Shown: positions 6,999 to 14,689 of the stretch, in pieces
Layout of the letters: each line of letters opens with the position of its first letter
How positions within the stretch are numbered: position 1 is the first letter of the stretch
Assembly (NCBI GenBank): GCA_027449125.1
Contig: DAIDME010000102.1
Coordinates: 1 to 64,000, forward strand
Reading direction: 5' to 3'
Origin: Solirubrobacterales bacterium
GTDB lineage: Bacteria; Actinomycetota; Thermoleophilia; Solirubrobacterales; Solirubrobacteraceae
Length of the DNA: 64,000 nt
Position numbers and translations under genes: made by a program
The notes under the pieces: generated by a model
Database searches by the model: none
What the model was told of the DNA's origin: nothing
The model's input: the letters and a program-made list of their open reading frames with translations, nothing else

Positions 6999-7148
6999 TC
7001 AGCGGCGGGTGGCGGCAGCCTGTTCCCTGGCAGAGTGGCCCTGGCAGCGTTGTGGGGCGGGAACGTCGCGCATCACTTCATCCACGTGCTGGCCGCAGCC
7101 GGCCCACGTGATCTTGCCGCAAACGTTGCACTTGACTGCGTGACACAT
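6999..7148 (-). CDS. Small Cys/His-rich protein, copy 1
   Basis: This 49-residue protein is rich in potential metal ligands: Cys at 2, 7, 10, 18 and 35 and His at 21 and 38 (MCHAVKCNVCGK, then TWAGCGQHV, then CQGH). A zinc or other metal site is likely, but the function is unknown. It is the last gene of a minus-strand operon behind the CstR-like repressor, 41 bases after that gene. A clear paralogue lies at 10688-10870, again next to a thiol- or metal-responsive regulator. The ATG at 7148 is chosen because the conserved MC-x4-C-x2-C motif starts there. Confidence 0.75.
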   Translation of the reverse strand: MCHAVKCNVCGKITWAGCGQHVDEVMRDVPAPQRCQGHSAREQAAATRR

Positions 7149-7189
7149 GTCGCTCTCGTTTCTGTGGTTGGGTTTGGTGGAGGGTTGGT

Positions 7190-7483
7190 CTATGCGAGCC
7201 CGAGAAACAGCCGTTCCAGCGCGTCCAGGTCGGGGCCGCCGCTCGAGGCGCCGCTGACACAGTCGTGCATCGCCTCGGCAACGATTTTGAAGCCGGCCCG
7301 CTCGACGGCATGAAGGACCGCGGAAAGCTGCGTGAGAACCTCGTCGCACGGCTGGTCGGCCTCCACGGCGCGGATGACGGCGTCGAGCTGACCCTGGGCG
7401 CGCCGCAGACGGTTGACGATACGGTGGTGACGCTCCGAACGCTGCGTCGAGACGGAGGTCTCCGGAACGGGTGCGGCGATCAT
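7190..7483 (-). CDS. CsoR/RcnR-family repressor, CstR-like (persulfide sensor type)
   Basis: The 97-residue DUF156 protein has RLRRAQGQLDAVIRAVEADQ followed by Cys46, and Cys75 in AMHDCV. The 29-residue spacing equals that of the two thiol ligands of copper CsoR and of the two reactive cysteines of CstR. The CsoR copper His, four residues before the second Cys, is Ala71 here, which points to a sulfane-sulfur sensor of CstR type. The gene overlaps the persulfide-reductase gene as ATGA, and a perfect GC-rich palindrome precedes the operon (9259-9274). The sulfur-sensing call is inference from residues and context; a different metal remains possible. Confidence 0.8.
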   Translation of the reverse strand: MIAAPVPETSVSTQRSERHHRIVNRLRRAQGQLDAVIRAVEADQPCDEVLTQLSAVLHAVERAGFKIVAEAMHDCVSGASSGGPDLDALERLFLGLA

Positions 7484-9249
7484 GCGGCGAGCCTCCCCGT
7501 GCTCGCTTCGCGGGCGCTCAGTGAGCCGTGAACGTGCCGGTAGGTGGTCAGGCCACCGGACAGGCTGGTGGCGTTGAAGCCGGCCAGGCGGAGCGCTCGG
7601 TGGGCCAAGTACGAGCGCATTCCGGAAGCGCAGATCACGACAACGCGCTGGTCGCCGGCCAGCGCGCGCAACTCGTCGATGTGGTCGCGGAGTTCTGTGT
7701 GAGGCACGTTGACTGCGCCCGGCAGATGGCCCGAGCGGAACTCTCCACGTGAGCGCACATCGAGCAGGAGGTGGCGATCATCAGCTTCCGGCAGGTCTTG
7801 CGCGTAGGTGGCCGCAAGCGTGCCGTCGAGCAGGTTGGCGCCGACCATGCCGGCGAGGTTGACCGGGTCCTTGGCCGACCCGTAAGGCGGCGAGTAGGCC
7901 AGATCGAGCTCGACCAGGTCGGCGGCCGTCAGGGCGGAGCGAATCGCGGTCGCGAGCACGTCGATGCGCTTGTCGACGCCGGCTTTGCCCGCTATCTGCG
8001 CGCCGAGCAACCTCCCGCCTTCACGGTCGAAGTGGAGCAGCATGTGCAGCACCTGGGCGCCTGGGAAGTAAGAGGCGTGATGCCTGGGGTGCAGGTGCGC
8101 GGTCACGTGAGCGACGCCAGCCGCCGCCAGGGTCCTGCGGTTCGCCCCGGTGCTGGCCACGGTGAGCTCGCCAATCCGCGCGATCACCGTTCCGACAGCG
8201 GCCGGCAGGGGACGTGTCGCAGCGCCGAAGATGTTGTCTGACACGATCCGGCCGGCGCGGCTTGCAGGTCCCGCGAGCGCGACCATCCGACGCTCCCCGC
8301 TGGTCGCGTCGGATGCCAATGCGGCATCGCCGACCGCCCAGACGTGTGGCAGGTTCGTGCGGCCCTGGGCATCGGTGATGAGCGATCCGCGCTGCTCTGC
8401 GACACCCGCCGAAACGAACAACGAGGTGGCCGGCCGCACGCCGGTAGCAAGGATGATCAGGTCGGCGCTGAGTGCTGACCCGTCGGAGAACTCCACGACG
8501 CTGTCATCTCGGCCGTGCTCGATGCGCTCCGCTGTGAGCCCGACTCGCAGATCGACGCCCAGCTCGCGTAGGGCCTCGGCGGCAACGGAGGCTGTCTCCT
8601 CGTCGAGTGGCGGCAGCACATGCGAGCCGGCCTCCACGAGCGTCACCGGGAGCTCGCGCAGCGCGAGAGCCTCCGCGATCTCCACGCCGATGAAGCCTGC
8701 GCCGAGCACGAGCGGCCGCCAGTTGCGGCGCAGGCCCTCCGAAGTGTGGCCGTCAGACAGCGTTTCGTAGACCCGGAGCGCATCGTCTACGGTGCGGAGC
8801 GTCTGCACGCGGGGATGGTCGAGTCCTGGTATGGGCGGCCGGGCGGTCTCGGTGCCCACCGCGATGATCAGCTCGTCGTAGGCGATCTCCTCGGCGCCGT
8901 TGGGCGTGATCACCTCGACGACGCGGTGCTCTGCGTCAAGGGCAGTCACCTCGTGCTCGGTGCGGACGTCGAGGTTCAGCCAAGCGCGCAGTGTCTCAGG
9001 CGTGTGGACGGTCAGTTGGTCAGGATCGTCGATCTCGCCGCCGACGTAATAAGGCAGCGCGCAGCTCGCCGACGATACGTGGCGCTGGCGCTCGAGGACG
9101 ATGATCTCAGCGGTTTCGCTGTGGCGGCGCGCGCGCGCGGCGGCGCTCATGCCAGCCGCGGTGCCGCCGACGATCACGAGGCGGCCGGGGGCGGTGGTCG
9201 AGCGATCGCCAAGCACCGCTCTACTACTGTGTGCTTGTTCTTGGTCCAT
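7480..9249 (-). CDS. CoA-disulfide reductase/rhodanese fusion (persulfide reductase)
   Basis: The 589-residue flavoprotein begins with an FAD site (VIVGGTAAGMSAAARARR), then SSASCALPYYVGG with the single redox Cys of CoA-disulfide reductases. A second dinucleotide site (VLGAGFIGVEIAEAL), ATGVRP and VWAVGDAA follow, and a C-terminal rhodanese domain carries the active-site loop ICASGMRS. Such fusions reduce CoA or glutathione persulfides and polysulfides using NAD(P)H. It leads the operon with the CstR-like repressor and the small Cys/His protein. The ATG at 9249 is preferred because the ATG at 9267 lies inside the palindromic operator; no ribosome-binding site is seen, so the mRNA may be leaderless. 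Confidence 0.9.
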   Translation of the reverse strand: MDQEQAHSSRAVLGDRSTTAPGRLVIVGGTAAGMSAAARARRHSETAEIIVLERQRHVSSASCALPYYVGGEIDDPDQLTVHTPETLRAWLNLDVRTEHEVTALDAEHRVVEVITPNGAEEIAYDELIIAVGTETARPPIPGLDHPRVQTLRTVDDALRVYETLSDGHTSEGLRRNWRPLVLGAGFIGVEIAEALALRELPVTLVEAGSHVLPPLDEETASVAAEALRELGVDLRVGLTAERIEHGRDDSVVEFSDGSALSADLIILATGVRPATSLFVSAGVAEQRGSLITDAQGRTNLPHVWAVGDAALASDATSGERRMVALAGPASRAGRIVSDNIFGAATRPLPAAVGTVIARIGELTVASTGANRRTLAAAGVAHVTAHLHPRHHASYFPGAQVLHMLLHFDREGGRLLGAQIAGKAGVDKRIDVLATAIRSALTAADLVELDLAYSPPYGSAKDPVNLAGMVGANLLDGTLAATYAQDLPEADDRHLLLDVRSRGEFRSGHLPGAVNVPHTELRDHIDELRALAGDQRVVVICASGMRSYLAHRALRLAGFNATSLSGGLTTYRHVHGSLSAREASTGRLAA

Positions 9250-9258
9250 GGCAGCAGC

Positions 9259-9274
9259 ATACCCCATGGGGTAT
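9259..9274 (-). promoter_or_regulatory. Perfect 16-bp palindromic CsoR/CstR-type operator
   Basis: ATACCCCATGGGGTAT is a perfect palindrome ten bases before the ATG of the persulfide-reductase gene. It matches the AT-flanked run of C/G typical of CsoR-family operators. The CstR-like repressor encoded in the same operon is the natural ligand, giving autoregulation induced by reactive sulfur species. Confidence 0.75.
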
Positions 9275-9439
9275 CGATGCGCAATCGCCGCTCACCGACG
9301 TGTCCTGCCTGGCGATGACAATGCCACAACTAAACAGGGGTGCGAGGGTGTAGTAGTCACGTGGCGACCTCGTCGCGAACGGTGGCCCCAGACCACCGTG
9401 GCGGGCCGGAGGAGTTCGAGGAATCAATCGGGAGTGCGA

Positions 9440-10394
9440 GACGGGATGGCAACTGCAGACCCGACTTCAGCTGGGTCCCGTCGAACGCCTGGGTGGGAGT
9501 CGGGCTGATGAAGGCGACCAAGGTCCTGGTCGCGCCGCCGACCTGCTCGGCCGCGCAGTCGATCCACCCCGAGGGCGATGCTCAGTCGTAGACGCCGCAT
9601 GTGAGCTCCGTCAGCGCGGATGCACGGCGCACAGGGTGCCCTACGACTTCCTGGTCAACGCAGCCGGCCCCTCGCTGCAGCTCGACAAGACTGAGGGCCT
9701 GGGGCCGGAGATCGAGCGCATGCGCCGCGGCGAGCGGCGAACGTTGATCCTCGGTGCCGGCCACGGCACCTGCACGTGCGAGGGGGCGACCTTTGAGTAC
9801 ATCGTCAACCTCGAGTTCGAGCCGCGTCGAGTTCGAGCCGCGGCGCCACGGCGTGCGCTACAGAGCCGACATCACCGGGATCACCAACGAATACGAGCGC
9901 GGGACCGATTGGGTCACACGCGCGCACGTGCAGAGGGTGGAGCAGGATCGCATCGTGTGCGAGACGCTCGACGGCGGCGTGAGCGAACGCGAGTTTGACT
10001 TCGCGATGCCGCTGTCCCGTGCAGCGGCGTCGGCCTCGAGGCTGACGGACGTGATGGCGCCACGATCACCGATCGCCTCTTCCTGCCCAGCGACTTCATG
10101 CGCGTGGAAGCAGAACACGACCAGAAGCCATAGGCCGAGTGGAAGGCCGCTGACCGGCCCCGCACCTGCCAGTCGCCGGCCCGCCAGTAGATCTTCGCGG
10201 CTGGCGGCGCCTTCGCGCCCTCACACCAGATCTCCATGCCCCACACGAGCCCCGACGGCACCGTGATGGCTCCTGCGCCTACCCACGAGGCGTCGATCGC
10301 CGAGATGGGCGCCGCGTGCGTGGCCTCCGCCGGCGCGAGCCCCTTCGCCGGCACGGCCGCGTCGATGATCGTCTACCCGATCGTCCCCGACTAG
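9440..10394 (+). pseudogene. Decayed sulfide:quinone-oxidoreductase-like flavoprotein
   Basis: Recognisable segments of an SQR-like FAD oxidoreductase appear in order but in changing frames: DFSWVPSNAWVGVGLMK and IHPEGDA; then YDFLVNAAGPSLQLDKTEGL and GAGHGTCTCEGATFEYIVN; then DITGITNEYE and REFDFAMPL; then ITDRLFLPSDFMRVEAE, EWKAADRPRT, IFAAGGAFAP and the C-terminal MIVYPIVPD. Three frameshifts are needed; one comes from a 16-bp tandem duplication at 9811-9842. In-frame TAGs occur at 10131-10133 and 10188-10190. The N-terminal FAD part is not visible, so the gene is also truncated. It lies beside the persulfide operon, which suggests that a former sulfide-oxidation step was lost. Confidence 0.8.
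9811..9842 (+). repeat. 16-bp tandem duplication causing a frameshift
   Basis: The 16-base unit at 9811-9826 is repeated exactly at 9827-9842 inside the SQR-like pseudogene. Because 16 is not a multiple of three, it shifts the reading frame exactly where the protein similarity changes frame. Confidence 0.9.
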
Positions 10395-10622
10395 GATCGC
10401 CTCCCGCGGTAGGCAGATGAACGAAGATCAGGCTCGCTACGCGCCCAAGCTGGCGCGGTTCGCCGTCCTTCGTCGCACGTTCGTGCCATTGCAGACCTGG
10501 CGCCTTGCGGTCATCAACCCGAAGATGCTCGACATCACTCGCCGCAACCACAGCGGTGGCCATCAGCGCTGAGGGGCGATCGCGCACCGATCGGATCGCA
10601 GAGCCTCGCCACCCCTGCGCTC

Positions 10623-10674
10623 TGCCAGCCCCGCCGGCGCCCGACCGATTCGTCGCTCGCCGGCGGGGCTGGCA
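10623..10674. terminator. Hairpin terminator after second Cys/His gene
   Basis: The arms at 10623-10639 and 10658-10674 form a perfect 17-bp stem with an 18-base loop. It lies 14 bases past the stop of the minus-strand gene 10688-10870 and probably ends its transcript. The 228 bases between the SQR pseudogene and this stem hold no recognisable gene. Confidence 0.65.
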
Positions 10675-10687
10675 GCGTGATGGTGCG

Positions 10688-10870
10688 TCAGCTCGACGCC
10701 TTGCTCCCGGCCCCGAAGAGACGCCCAAAGATGCCGCCGCTGGAAGGCTGCTTGGGGTGCCCCTGGCACCATTGTGAAGCGGGGACTGAACGCCGAACCT
10801 GCTCGACGTGTTGGCCGCAGCCGGCCCAGGTGGTCTTTCCGCACTGCTTGCAGGTGACTGCTCGACACAT
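10688..10870 (-). CDS. Small Cys/His-rich protein, copy 2
   Basis: This 60-residue protein is a paralogue of 6999-7148: MCRAVTCKQCGKTTWAGCG, then QHV and CQGH are shared, keeping every Cys and both His of the first copy. It adds a Gly/Phe-rich tail (GIFGRLFGAG). The ATG at 10870 has GGAGCAAC upstream as ribosome-binding site. It is monocistronic with its own hairpin terminator and an 8-bp inverted repeat in its leader (10893-10911). The ArsR regulator at 11086 diverges from it. A thiol- or metal-linked role is inferred only from the ligands and neighbours. Confidence 0.8.
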   Translation of the reverse strand: MCRAVTCKQCGKTTWAGCGQHVEQVRRSVPASQWCQGHPKQPSSGGIFGRLFGAGSKASS

Positions 10871-10911: not shown

Positions 10912-10985
10912 TGCTGAACTATACAACGCTGTAGTGGTAGCGGGCGGTTCGGTCGGGGCGGCGGTCGGGTTGGTCGGTGTCCGGT

Positions 10986-11041
10986 CGCTGAGCGGTGAGG
11001 CGCCCGGTTCGGCCGCTGAGCGGTGAGGCGCCCGGTTCGGC
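10986..11041. repeat. 28-bp tandem duplication
   Basis: Two identical 28-base units stand head to tail at 10986-11013 and 11014-11041, about 45 bases before the ArsR start. They contain no obvious palindrome. A recent slippage duplication is the simplest reading, but it alters promoter spacing. Confidence 0.85.
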
Positions 11042-11085
11042 CGCGGCCACCTCCACAACCGAGTGCTTGTGCTAGCGTATTACGC

Positions 11086-11439
11086 GTGACAACCGCTCGC
11101 CCAGTCCCACCGATGCCGCTCTCGGAGCCGCTCGTCGACCTCGTCGCCCAGCGCTTTCGCGTTCTGGGCGAGCCGATGCGGATCCGGCTGCTCGATCTTC
11201 TGCGCGAGGGCGAGGCCACGGTCGGCGAGCTTCAGCAGGCCCTGGGCGCCTCTCAGCAGAACGTCTCAAAGCACCTCGGCATCCTGCACGGTGCGGGGAT
11301 GGTCACCCGCGCCAAGCGCGGCACGAGCGTCGTGTACGCGATCACCGATGACAGCGTGTTCGATCTCTGTGAACAGGTGTGTGGCGGCATCCGCCGCCAG
11401 CTCTCGGACATGGAGTCGATCCTCGGGCAGCCGTCCTGA
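11086..11439 (+). CDS. ArsR-family transcriptional regulator
   Basis: The 117-residue winged-helix protein has VLGEPMRIRLLDLLREGEA, a recognition region LGASQQNVSKHLGILHGAGM and a wing with KRGTSVVYAI. A CxxxC pair lies in the last helices (DLCEQVCGGI), a plausible thiol or metal sensor site; the classic CVC metal box of ArsR is absent. The GTG at 11086 is chosen because a near-palindrome GCGTATTACGC abuts it and could be its operator in a leaderless promoter; an ATG at 11113 is the alternative. The divergent Cys/His gene is the likely target. Confidence 0.8.
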   Translation: MTTARPVPPMPLSEPLVDLVAQRFRVLGEPMRIRLLDLLREGEATVGELQQALGASQQNVSKHLGILHGAGMVTRAKRGTSVVYAITDDSVFDLCEQVCGGIRRQLSDMESILGQPS

Positions 11440-13711: not shown

Positions 13712-14689
13712 ATGTATCGCCTGGTGTCGTGGATGCGGCGGCGGCTTGGTGTGTCGGTGTCGCTGGCGGTGGTGTTGCTTGGTGGCGCGTCGGCGGCGGT
13801 GGCGTTGGCGGCCACGCGGCCTGCGCCGAGGATCTCCGCGTGCGTGCAGCGCCGCGGCGGGGTCATGTACATGGCGCGGCGCTGCCGGCGTGGTGACCGT
13901 CGCGTCGTGTGGTCTGTGCGCGGGCCCCAGGGTTTGCGTGGTCTGAGGGGCCTGGTCGGTCGTGCTGGTGCGGCTGGGCCCGCGGGTCCTGCGGGTGCGA
14001 CCGGCGCGCAGGGTGGTGCTGGGCTGAGCGGCGCTACTGGCGCGAGGGGTCCCGCGGGCGCGACCGGTGCGACCGGTCCCGCCGGGCCGGGAGCGCAGTC
14101 CTTTACGGGCTCCGGTAGCTACACCGTGCCCTCCGGGGTGTCGATGATCGAGGTTGAGGCCTGGGGTGCCGGCGGTGGCGGCGGCGGCTATGTGTCCGGC
14201 GCCAGCAGTGGTGGCGCCGGCGGTGGCGGCGGCGCAACGGCTACTGGCCTGATTGCCGTAGCGGTCGGCTCCACCTGCGCCGTCACGGTCGGCGCCGGTG
14301 GCGTCGGCGGCGCTCAGACAATAAACGGCTCGGCGGGTACCAGCACCGAGGTATCGTGTGGATCGGCTACGGTGCTGGCAGGGGGCGGCGGTGGCGGGTC
14401 TGGCGGCAGCGGGTCCGTGGGCTCGGGCGGCACGACTGGCTATTCGGGAGATGCGATCGGTCTCACCAGCAGCGCGGGGGGGACCGGAGCGACCGGTACG
14501 GGGAACACCGGCGGCGCTGGAGGGGCCAACGGTGGCGGCAGCGGCAGTGGCGCGTCCAGCAGTTCCAACGGCGGCAATGGCGGTACCGGTGGTGGCGGTG
14601 GCGGTGGTGGCGCCCTCGGTCCCGGCAGCGCCAACGGTAGCGGCGGCGCCGGTGGTAACGGCTTGGTGGTGATCATCCCAGTTCATTGA
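13712..14689 (+). CDS. Secreted collagen-like, glycine-rich protein
   Basis: The 325-residue protein has a basic N-terminus and a hydrophobic segment (SVSLAVVLLGGASAAVALAA) acting as a signal peptide or anchor. About 19 Gly-X-Y triplets follow (residues about 70-128), then a beta-rich segment with GSGSYTVPSGVSMIEVEAWG, and a Gly/Ser-rich tail. The beta segment plus glycine-rich tail resembles phage tail-fibre-like and bacterial surface glycine-rich domains. The ATG at 13712 has GGAGGTGATGG upstream. It is probably surface-exposed or adhesive; the role is unknown. The repetitive DNA is prone to slippage. Confidence 0.7.
   Translation: MYRLVSWMRRRLGVSVSLAVVLLGGASAAVALAATRPAPRISACVQRRGGVMYMARRCRRGDRRVVWSVRGPQGLRGLRGLVGRAGAAGPAGPAGATGAQGGAGLSGATGARGPAGATGATGPAGPGAQSFTGSGSYTVPSGVSMIEVEAWGAGGGGGGYVSGASSGGAGGGGGATATGLIAVAVGSTCAVTVGAGGVGGAQTINGSAGTSTEVSCGSATVLAGGGGGGSGGSGSVGSGGTTGYSGDAIGLTSSAGGTGATGTGNTGGAGGANGGGSGSGASSSSNGGNGGTGGGGGGGGALGPGSANGSGGAGGNGLVVIIPVH

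Follow-up and report, generated by a model that had tools for sequence, protein, structure and literature searches.

Two genes for small Cys/His proteins, here called mini-proteins, lie in a stretch of 64,000 nucleotides (nt) from a Solirubrobacterales bacterium (assembly GCA_027449125.1, contig DAIDME010000102.1, positions 1 to 64,000), referred to below as the window. Copy 1, of 49 amino acids (aa), is encoded at 6999-7148 and copy 2, of 60 aa, at 10688-10870, both on the minus strand. The original prediction, made from the sequence alone, had noted that the two have the segment TWAGCGQHV and seven Cys/His positions in common (C2, C7, C10, C18, H21, C35 and H38); these residues, the coordinates and the minus-strand open reading frames (ORFs) were all confirmed, copy 1 appearing within a longer GTG ORF in the program-made ORF list. 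In both copies the protein begins with MC. Their paralogy also holds, since the pair matches at E 4.7e-15 (61% identity across 44 residues) and no third copy was found in the 3.2-Mb assembly, in which the next-best match has an E value of 0.1. The data presented here give good support to the membership of the mini-protein in a CstR-type sulfur regulon, and suggest that it probably plays a working part, so far overlooked, in the defence of actinobacteria against sulfide.

Copy 1 is the last gene of an operon that may be written coaPR-cstR-mini. At the operon start lies a predicted operator, ATACCCCATGGGGTAT (9259-9274, no strand assigned), whose exact core TACCCCNNGGGGTA (9260-9273) is the sole match in the window at up to two mismatches and the sole exact site in the genome. 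Leftward from the operator follow a CoA-persulfide reductase-like flavoprotein with a C-terminal rhodanese domain (7480-9267, minus strand, with a start perhaps at 9249), a CstR-like DUF156 regulator (7190-7483, minus strand; PF02583, E 5.3e-20) that overlaps the coaPR stop by 4 bp and, after a gap of 41 bp, copy 1, so that the placement of this copy in a CstR-like operon was correctly predicted. Copper CsoR proteins carry a His 25 residues past the first Cys. The window regulator has Cys46 and Cys75, 29 residues apart, and an Ala at the copper-His position. The best Protein Data Bank (PDB) match of the flavoprotein is 8a56, a Coenzyme A-persulfide reductase (E 2.1e-125, residues 26-579), and its translation includes the loops SSASCALPYY and CASGMRS. 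Against TIGR03385, the CoA-disulfide reductase equivalog, it scored 360.4 bits, under the cut-off of 578.8, and a CoAPR/Npsr assignment fits it better because of the extra rhodanese domain. The operon (6999-9274) combines three features of a CstR-type system, namely a two-Cys DUF156 protein without the copper His, an operator of the ATACCn6GGTAT kind and a reactive-sulfur enzyme.

Right of the operator and between the two mini genes, at approximately 9440-10575 on the plus strand, there is a decayed sulfide:quinone oxidoreductase (SQR)-like pseudogene, recognisable from SQR-like fragments that are spread over two reading frames and interrupted by stops and frameshifts. Its counterpart in a same-genus genome (G012) is intact, encodes 481 aa (L186:8479-9924), is divergent from coaPR and matches SQR structures at E 4.7e-40. 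The same genome has a counterpart of each mini-protein, with 36 and 39 identical residues among the first 40, whereas copy-1 and copy-2 sequences have 26-28 identical residues in common. As each copy is closer to its G012 counterpart, the duplication predates the split between the two species. The pair found in the window is a recurring arrangement. Paired divergent mini genes were also seen within a single sulfur locus in eight other cases, in which the copies are sometimes in tandem and one of them is often tail-less (37-44 aa).

The evidence for a sulfur rather than a metal setting comes first from the type of the DUF156 neighbours. Typing was possible for 85 of the 90 DUF156 genes called in mini-protein loci, and all 85 lack the copper His, while the His was present in all 30 control loci, which were the best-scoring Pfam-profile matches to DUF156 in the phylum and not a random draw. 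The original prediction had proposed a link to sulfur or metal stress; the evidence favours sulfur over metal, the typed DUF156 neighbours being CstR-like and not copper-type (85/85). A copper link as the leading explanation was thus discarded, the more so as none of the 46 copper-type loci considered (30 and 16) has the exact operator core, although a looser version of the pattern is present in 5/30 and 5/16 of them.

Neighbouring genes tell a similar story. In the species-wide scan, at least 585 loci were confirmed, and the neighbour figures refer to the best 80 of them, of which 79 were titled Actinobacteria; a second set is made up of 52 loci from 396 genomes drawn evenly across the phylum, 48 of which have the mini-protein. 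Using home-made hidden Markov models (HMMs), a DUF156 gene was found within 2 kb of 50 of the best 80 loci and 19 of the 52, and any gene of our sulfur set within 2 kb of 64/80 and 24/52. After near-duplicates were dropped, the numbers for the best loci became 46/76 and 60/76, those for the phylum sample being unchanged (19/52 and 24/52). The linked types are CstR-like DUF156, CoAPR/CoADR-like flavoproteins, persulfide dioxygenase, rhodanese and TauE; since a shared rhodanese domain makes the flavoprotein, dioxygenase and rhodanese HMMs overlap, gene-level labels yield lower numbers. A homologue search with a tabulation of neighbours was one of the checks put forward with the original prediction, and it did not return homologues scattered with no tie to genes for DUF156, ArsR or rhodanese: the 19 DUF156 neighbours in the phylum sample compare with about 0.1 expected by chance (Poisson P ~3e-36, the expectation being based on 76 genes, summed by hand, across 48 positive genomes each taken as 3.4 Mb). 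In annotated plasmid loci the mini gene lies beside "metal-sensitive" DUF156 regulators and rhodanese, DsrE, TauE/SafE, MBL-fold and FAD enzyme genes. On plasmid pRHL3 of Rhodococcus jostii RHA1 it is found among MBL-fold hydrolase, thioredoxin, rhodanese, MMPL, DUF156, DUF2892, DUF302 and TauE genes, with an ATACCn6GGTAT operator ending 44 nt before it.

The operator itself provides the second line of evidence. Gel shifts with the persulfide-modified form of a persulfide-sensing CsoR-like repressor of Streptomyces coelicolor demonstrated binding to a promoter segment containing ATACCn6GGTAT, according to the portion of the report available (PMC7533328). In 1.66 Mb of mini-protein loci there are 90 occurrences of the loose palindrome TA[CT]CCC-n0-3-GGG[AG]TA versus 0.6 in shuffles. 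A scan of 54 genomes gave 45 places with the exact core, compared with 2 in the reversed control, and 18 of these 45 are within 4 kb of a mini gene. Of 159 mini genes, 49 have ATACCn6GGTAT at most 120 nt upstream, versus 32 of the 1313 remaining genes of these loci (Fisher P 7e-30). The operator precedes none of the 48 mini genes that closely follow a same-strand sulfur-set gene, and 49 of the remaining 111. For ten copies that lack any sulfur-set gene within 2 kb, the operator is found 34-98 nt upstream, and all ten genomes concerned encode a CstR-like DUF156 protein. In these genomes the operator was found within about 1.5 kb of just 1 of 12 CstR-type loci, which speaks against CstR autoregulation there.

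Copy 2 is divergent from an ArsR-family regulator, as had been claimed. The regulator (PF01022, E 1.7e-11; NF033788, 83 bits with a cut-off of 55) is encoded on the plus strand at 11086-11439, in an ORF that opens at 11023 and may start at 11086 or 11113, and has a CxxxC motif in its C-terminal half. Predicted ArsR sites (no strand assigned) lie in the copy-2 promoter (ACAACGCTGTAGTGGT, 10923-10938) and before arsR (ACAACCGAGTGCTTGT, 11055-11070), each with one mismatch to ACAACn6GTTGT, a consensus derived from relatives. Such one-mismatch sites are present in both divergent promoters of the window and of three same-genus genomes, and the wider form ACAA-n8-TTGT precedes arsR in 18 of the 22 cases, compared with 6% of random windows. 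Relatives of this ArsR occur in 31 of 61 genomes, and the CxxxC is kept in all 22 examined of the 30 loci retained. An ArsR gene was called in 19 of 20 fetched regions and, as judged from the gene lists, 17 of the 19 lie near thioredoxin, DUF2892-like, MMPL, SQR-like, rhodanese or persulfide dioxygenase genes. Pfam confirmed thioredoxin, MMPL, rhodanese, OsmC and MBL-rhodanese examples; DUF2892-like is our own label, two examples of which gave no Pfam match, and for the two flavoproteins the best NCBIfam match was SQR type III, under its cut-off. Owing to these contexts and to the sites in both divergent promoters, a sulfur regulator probably controls copy 2 as well, and the window ArsR probably senses sulfur. 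Against the BigR model this protein scored 41.5 bits, under the cut-off of 155, and the two sensing Cys are not both present. The ArsR of RHA1 was considered as a member of the same subfamily and rejected, as it shows 36% identity over 76 residues and has no CxxxC. On its own account, the subfamily with CxxxC, thioredoxin, DUF2892-like and MMPL neighbours and the ACAACn6GTTGT repeat (loci L311-L330) possibly represents an undescribed sulfur regulon.

Among 61 genomes close to that of the window, 7 have relatives of the mini-protein, all within the genus of the window. There are also 73 plasmid records with the mini-protein, including 32 from Rhodococcus and 16 from Clavibacter. Copies were collected with a pattern that demands C2, C7, C10, an aromatic residue at 15 and C18, leaving H21, C35 and the last ligand free, and the genome scan demanded C10, W15 and C18; each of the 149 loci examined contained a match to the collecting pattern, and this number includes the 52 phylum-sample loci, which had been found by profile. 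Genes in the loci were called with a home-made caller. A link to phages is essentially nil, the candidates amounting to a single scaffold that is unannotated and titled "Bacteriophage sp.", together with 3 of the 15 candidates that the pattern gave in viral contigs. A near-identical island with an identical mini-protein recurs among five loci (L017, L043, L044, L047 and L048), whose records are titled Microbacterium (plasmid), Cellulosimicrobium and Microlunatus (more than 91% shared 25-mers) and, for a partial match, Thermocrispum (49%); this reflects either recent transfer or contamination. Elsewhere in the window, at 13712-14689, a 325-aa ORF encodes GPA/GAT repeats of a collagen-like kind and, after them, a segment very rich in glycine.

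Across 151 distinct mini-protein sequences, C2, C7, C10, G17, C18, G19, H21 and C35 are invariant, C2, C7, C10 and C18 being also demanded by the collecting pattern. The seventh Cys/His is H38 in a CxxH motif (101 sequences), C37 in CxC (44) or H39 in CxxxH (6). The CxxxH variants (L081:6001-6186 and three other loci) indicate that this ligand drifts in spacing as well as in residue. In the AlphaFold model, residues 1-40 form two short strands and a helix (pLDDT 85-87), and a complete member of 37 aa, the shortest length in the family, has the same beta-beta-alpha layout (pLDDT 79). Such a core, together with the invariant ligands and the exchange between Cys and His at the last one, suggests a metal-binding mini-domain. 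None of 83 members had a convincing match in Pfam, NCBIfam or PHROGs; weak matches (E 0.004-0.1) included several zinc-finger families, and PHROG returned no match whatsoever for members of the 83-sequence alignment. Neither metallothionein nor TusA/DsrE/ThiS-type sulfur-carrier profiles were among the Pfam and NCBIfam matches of these members. The mini-protein profile found nothing convincing in the PDB, and the fold search gave no match at E <0.001 or Z >=2 and was given no weight as evidence.

Our preferred explanation, to which we give a probability of roughly 0.45, is that the mini-protein is a persulfide-response effector, that is, a metal-thiolate protein, induced through CstR and ArsR, that serves as an acceptor or relay of sulfane sulfur. 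Sulfide or persulfide would modify the CstR-like repressor of the window and free the operator at 9259-9274, so that coaPR, cstR and copy 1 would be expressed together, and copy 2 would be turned on along with the divergent ArsR, probably another sulfur sensor. The protein would fold as a beta-beta-alpha unit of 37-40 residues, with a metal, most likely zinc, held by the seven Cys/His. Once Met is removed, Cys2 becomes the N-terminus. The metal-bound thiolates or that of Cys2 would take sulfane sulfur from small-molecule persulfides, and rhodanese, CoA-persulfide reductase or persulfide dioxygenase may then receive this sulfur or clean the thiolates. Sensing by both regulators, metal binding and the acceptor or relay chemistry are what we infer in this scheme. 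It is favoured because the fold needs the ligands, the regulon is one for persulfide, Cys2 is N-terminal and zinc-finger thiolates can be persulfidated, as stated in the available part of one report (PMC13215146). More tentatively, the family may be a new reactive-sulfur class, in which a metal-thiolate centre and an N-terminal Cys are the active parts, induced by persulfide via two unrelated repressor families and buffering or relaying sulfane sulfur; in some genomes it would be a CstR target even without an adjacent detoxification enzyme.

Several observations weigh against an effector of this kind. One or two Cys would suffice for a pure sulfur carrier, whereas seven ligands are conserved here, and the support for zinc binding from folds and profiles consists only of the weak zinc-finger matches mentioned above. 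Of the 52 loci in the even sample, 28 have no sulfur-set neighbour within 2 kb. The CxC class is weakly linked, with a sulfur-set neighbour within 2 kb or an operator in 22 of 44 copies and neither in the other 22, compared with 96 of 109 copies of the CxxH class; some CxC members may have a different function. The mini-protein is absent from 21 of 27 same-genus relatives and from all 33 other-genus genomes among the 61, and DUF156 was found in 302 of the 396 phylum genomes versus 48 for the mini-protein. As most relatives and most DUF156-bearing genomes are without it, we regard it as an accessory component. In addition, similar G-tract operators are used by copper-type CsoR/RicR proteins, according to the accessible sections of PMC7533328.

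This last point, together with the seven conserved Cys/His and the exchange at the last position, which are a signature of metal ligands, would also fit a metal buffer, that is, a very small metallothionein-like protein, switched on by the sulfur regulators, that binds zinc or copper freed or mishandled under sulfide or persulfide attack. We consider such a role possible but on the whole unlikely. The typed DUF156 neighbours lack the copper His without exception, the exact core was found at 0/30 and 0/16 copper-type loci, and six Cys are few for a metallothionein, a family that none of the members matched. Furthermore, G452 and G456, both from Agromyces, have an operator-bearing copy that lies apart from sulfur-set genes, and in these genomes the only other DUF156 protein has a Cys-His-His arrangement, which is not the copper pattern.

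A role as a small regulatory or docking partner, in which the metal is purely structural and the C-terminal tail binds CstR, the reductase, rhodanese or the membrane and tunes their activity, seems to us rather doubtful. A hydrophobic-basic tail pattern (GxFxRLFGR) is present in 110 of the 151 sequences, the gene adjoins a regulator in many loci (DUF156 is the upstream neighbour in 30/80) and two divergent copies may occupy a single sulfur locus, all of which speaks for such a role. However, the tail is disordered in the AlphaFold model, tail-less members of 37-38 aa exist and the lone operator-bearing copies act apart from any fixed partner gene. Finally, a general zinc-finger-like housekeeping protein (e.g., nucleic-acid binding) that hitch-hikes by chance on mobile sulfur islands might account for the half of the even sample without a sulfur link and for islands that appear to move between genera, but is very improbable, as the family is absent from most genomes and hitch-hiking does not explain why lone copies have their own operator, nor why it stands only before copies that need a promoter.

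Descriptions of bacterial persulfide defence are in terms of sensors and enzymes (reductase, dioxygenase, rhodanese and exporter). A dedicated and highly conserved Cys/His mini-protein within this regulon would add a missing component, one that is often left unannotated owing to its size, in hundreds of actinobacterial species, including members of Rhodococcus, Microbacterium, Corynebacterium and Bifidobacterium. Through it, purposeful use of metal-thiolate centres in the handling of sulfane sulfur could also be tested directly.

In the literature on the sulfur/CsoR setting and on ArsR sensors, we found a single mention of the mini-protein, as a small hypothetical protein, in the available text of PMC6305408; the sections available of PMC8557817 have nothing on it, and a search with motif strings gave nothing relevant. 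The mention concerns the SUL module of Arthrobacter plasmids (pA58H2, locus L019 of our analysis, and two others), where the gene is given one phrase that, in the text available, covers neither family, ligands, regulation nor function (PMC6305408). The window ArsR has the fold of SqrR, BigR and YgaV, and its relatives likewise adjoin rhodanese, SQR-like and persulfide dioxygenase genes, but YgaV senses via Cys31 and Cys98, as far as the accessible part of its description goes (PMC9774250), whereas the window protein has only the CxxxC in its C-terminal half. The CstR/CoAPR operon of Enterococcus faecalis (PDB 8a56) resembles that of the window in its two-Cys DUF156 protein, G-tract operator and CoADR-rhodanese fusion. 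In the portion available of PMC9405070, the CoA-persulfide reductase is CstR-regulated and the system consists of CoAPR, RhdA, RhdB and CstR, with no mini-protein named. Similarly, the circuit of S. coelicolor is described in the available text of PMC7533328 as four genes (ScPDO, rhodanese, TauE and a CsoR-like regulator), among which no mini-protein is named, although the spacing of 29 between Cys37 and Cys66 of ScCsoR and the operator ATACCn6GGTAT are equal to those of the window.

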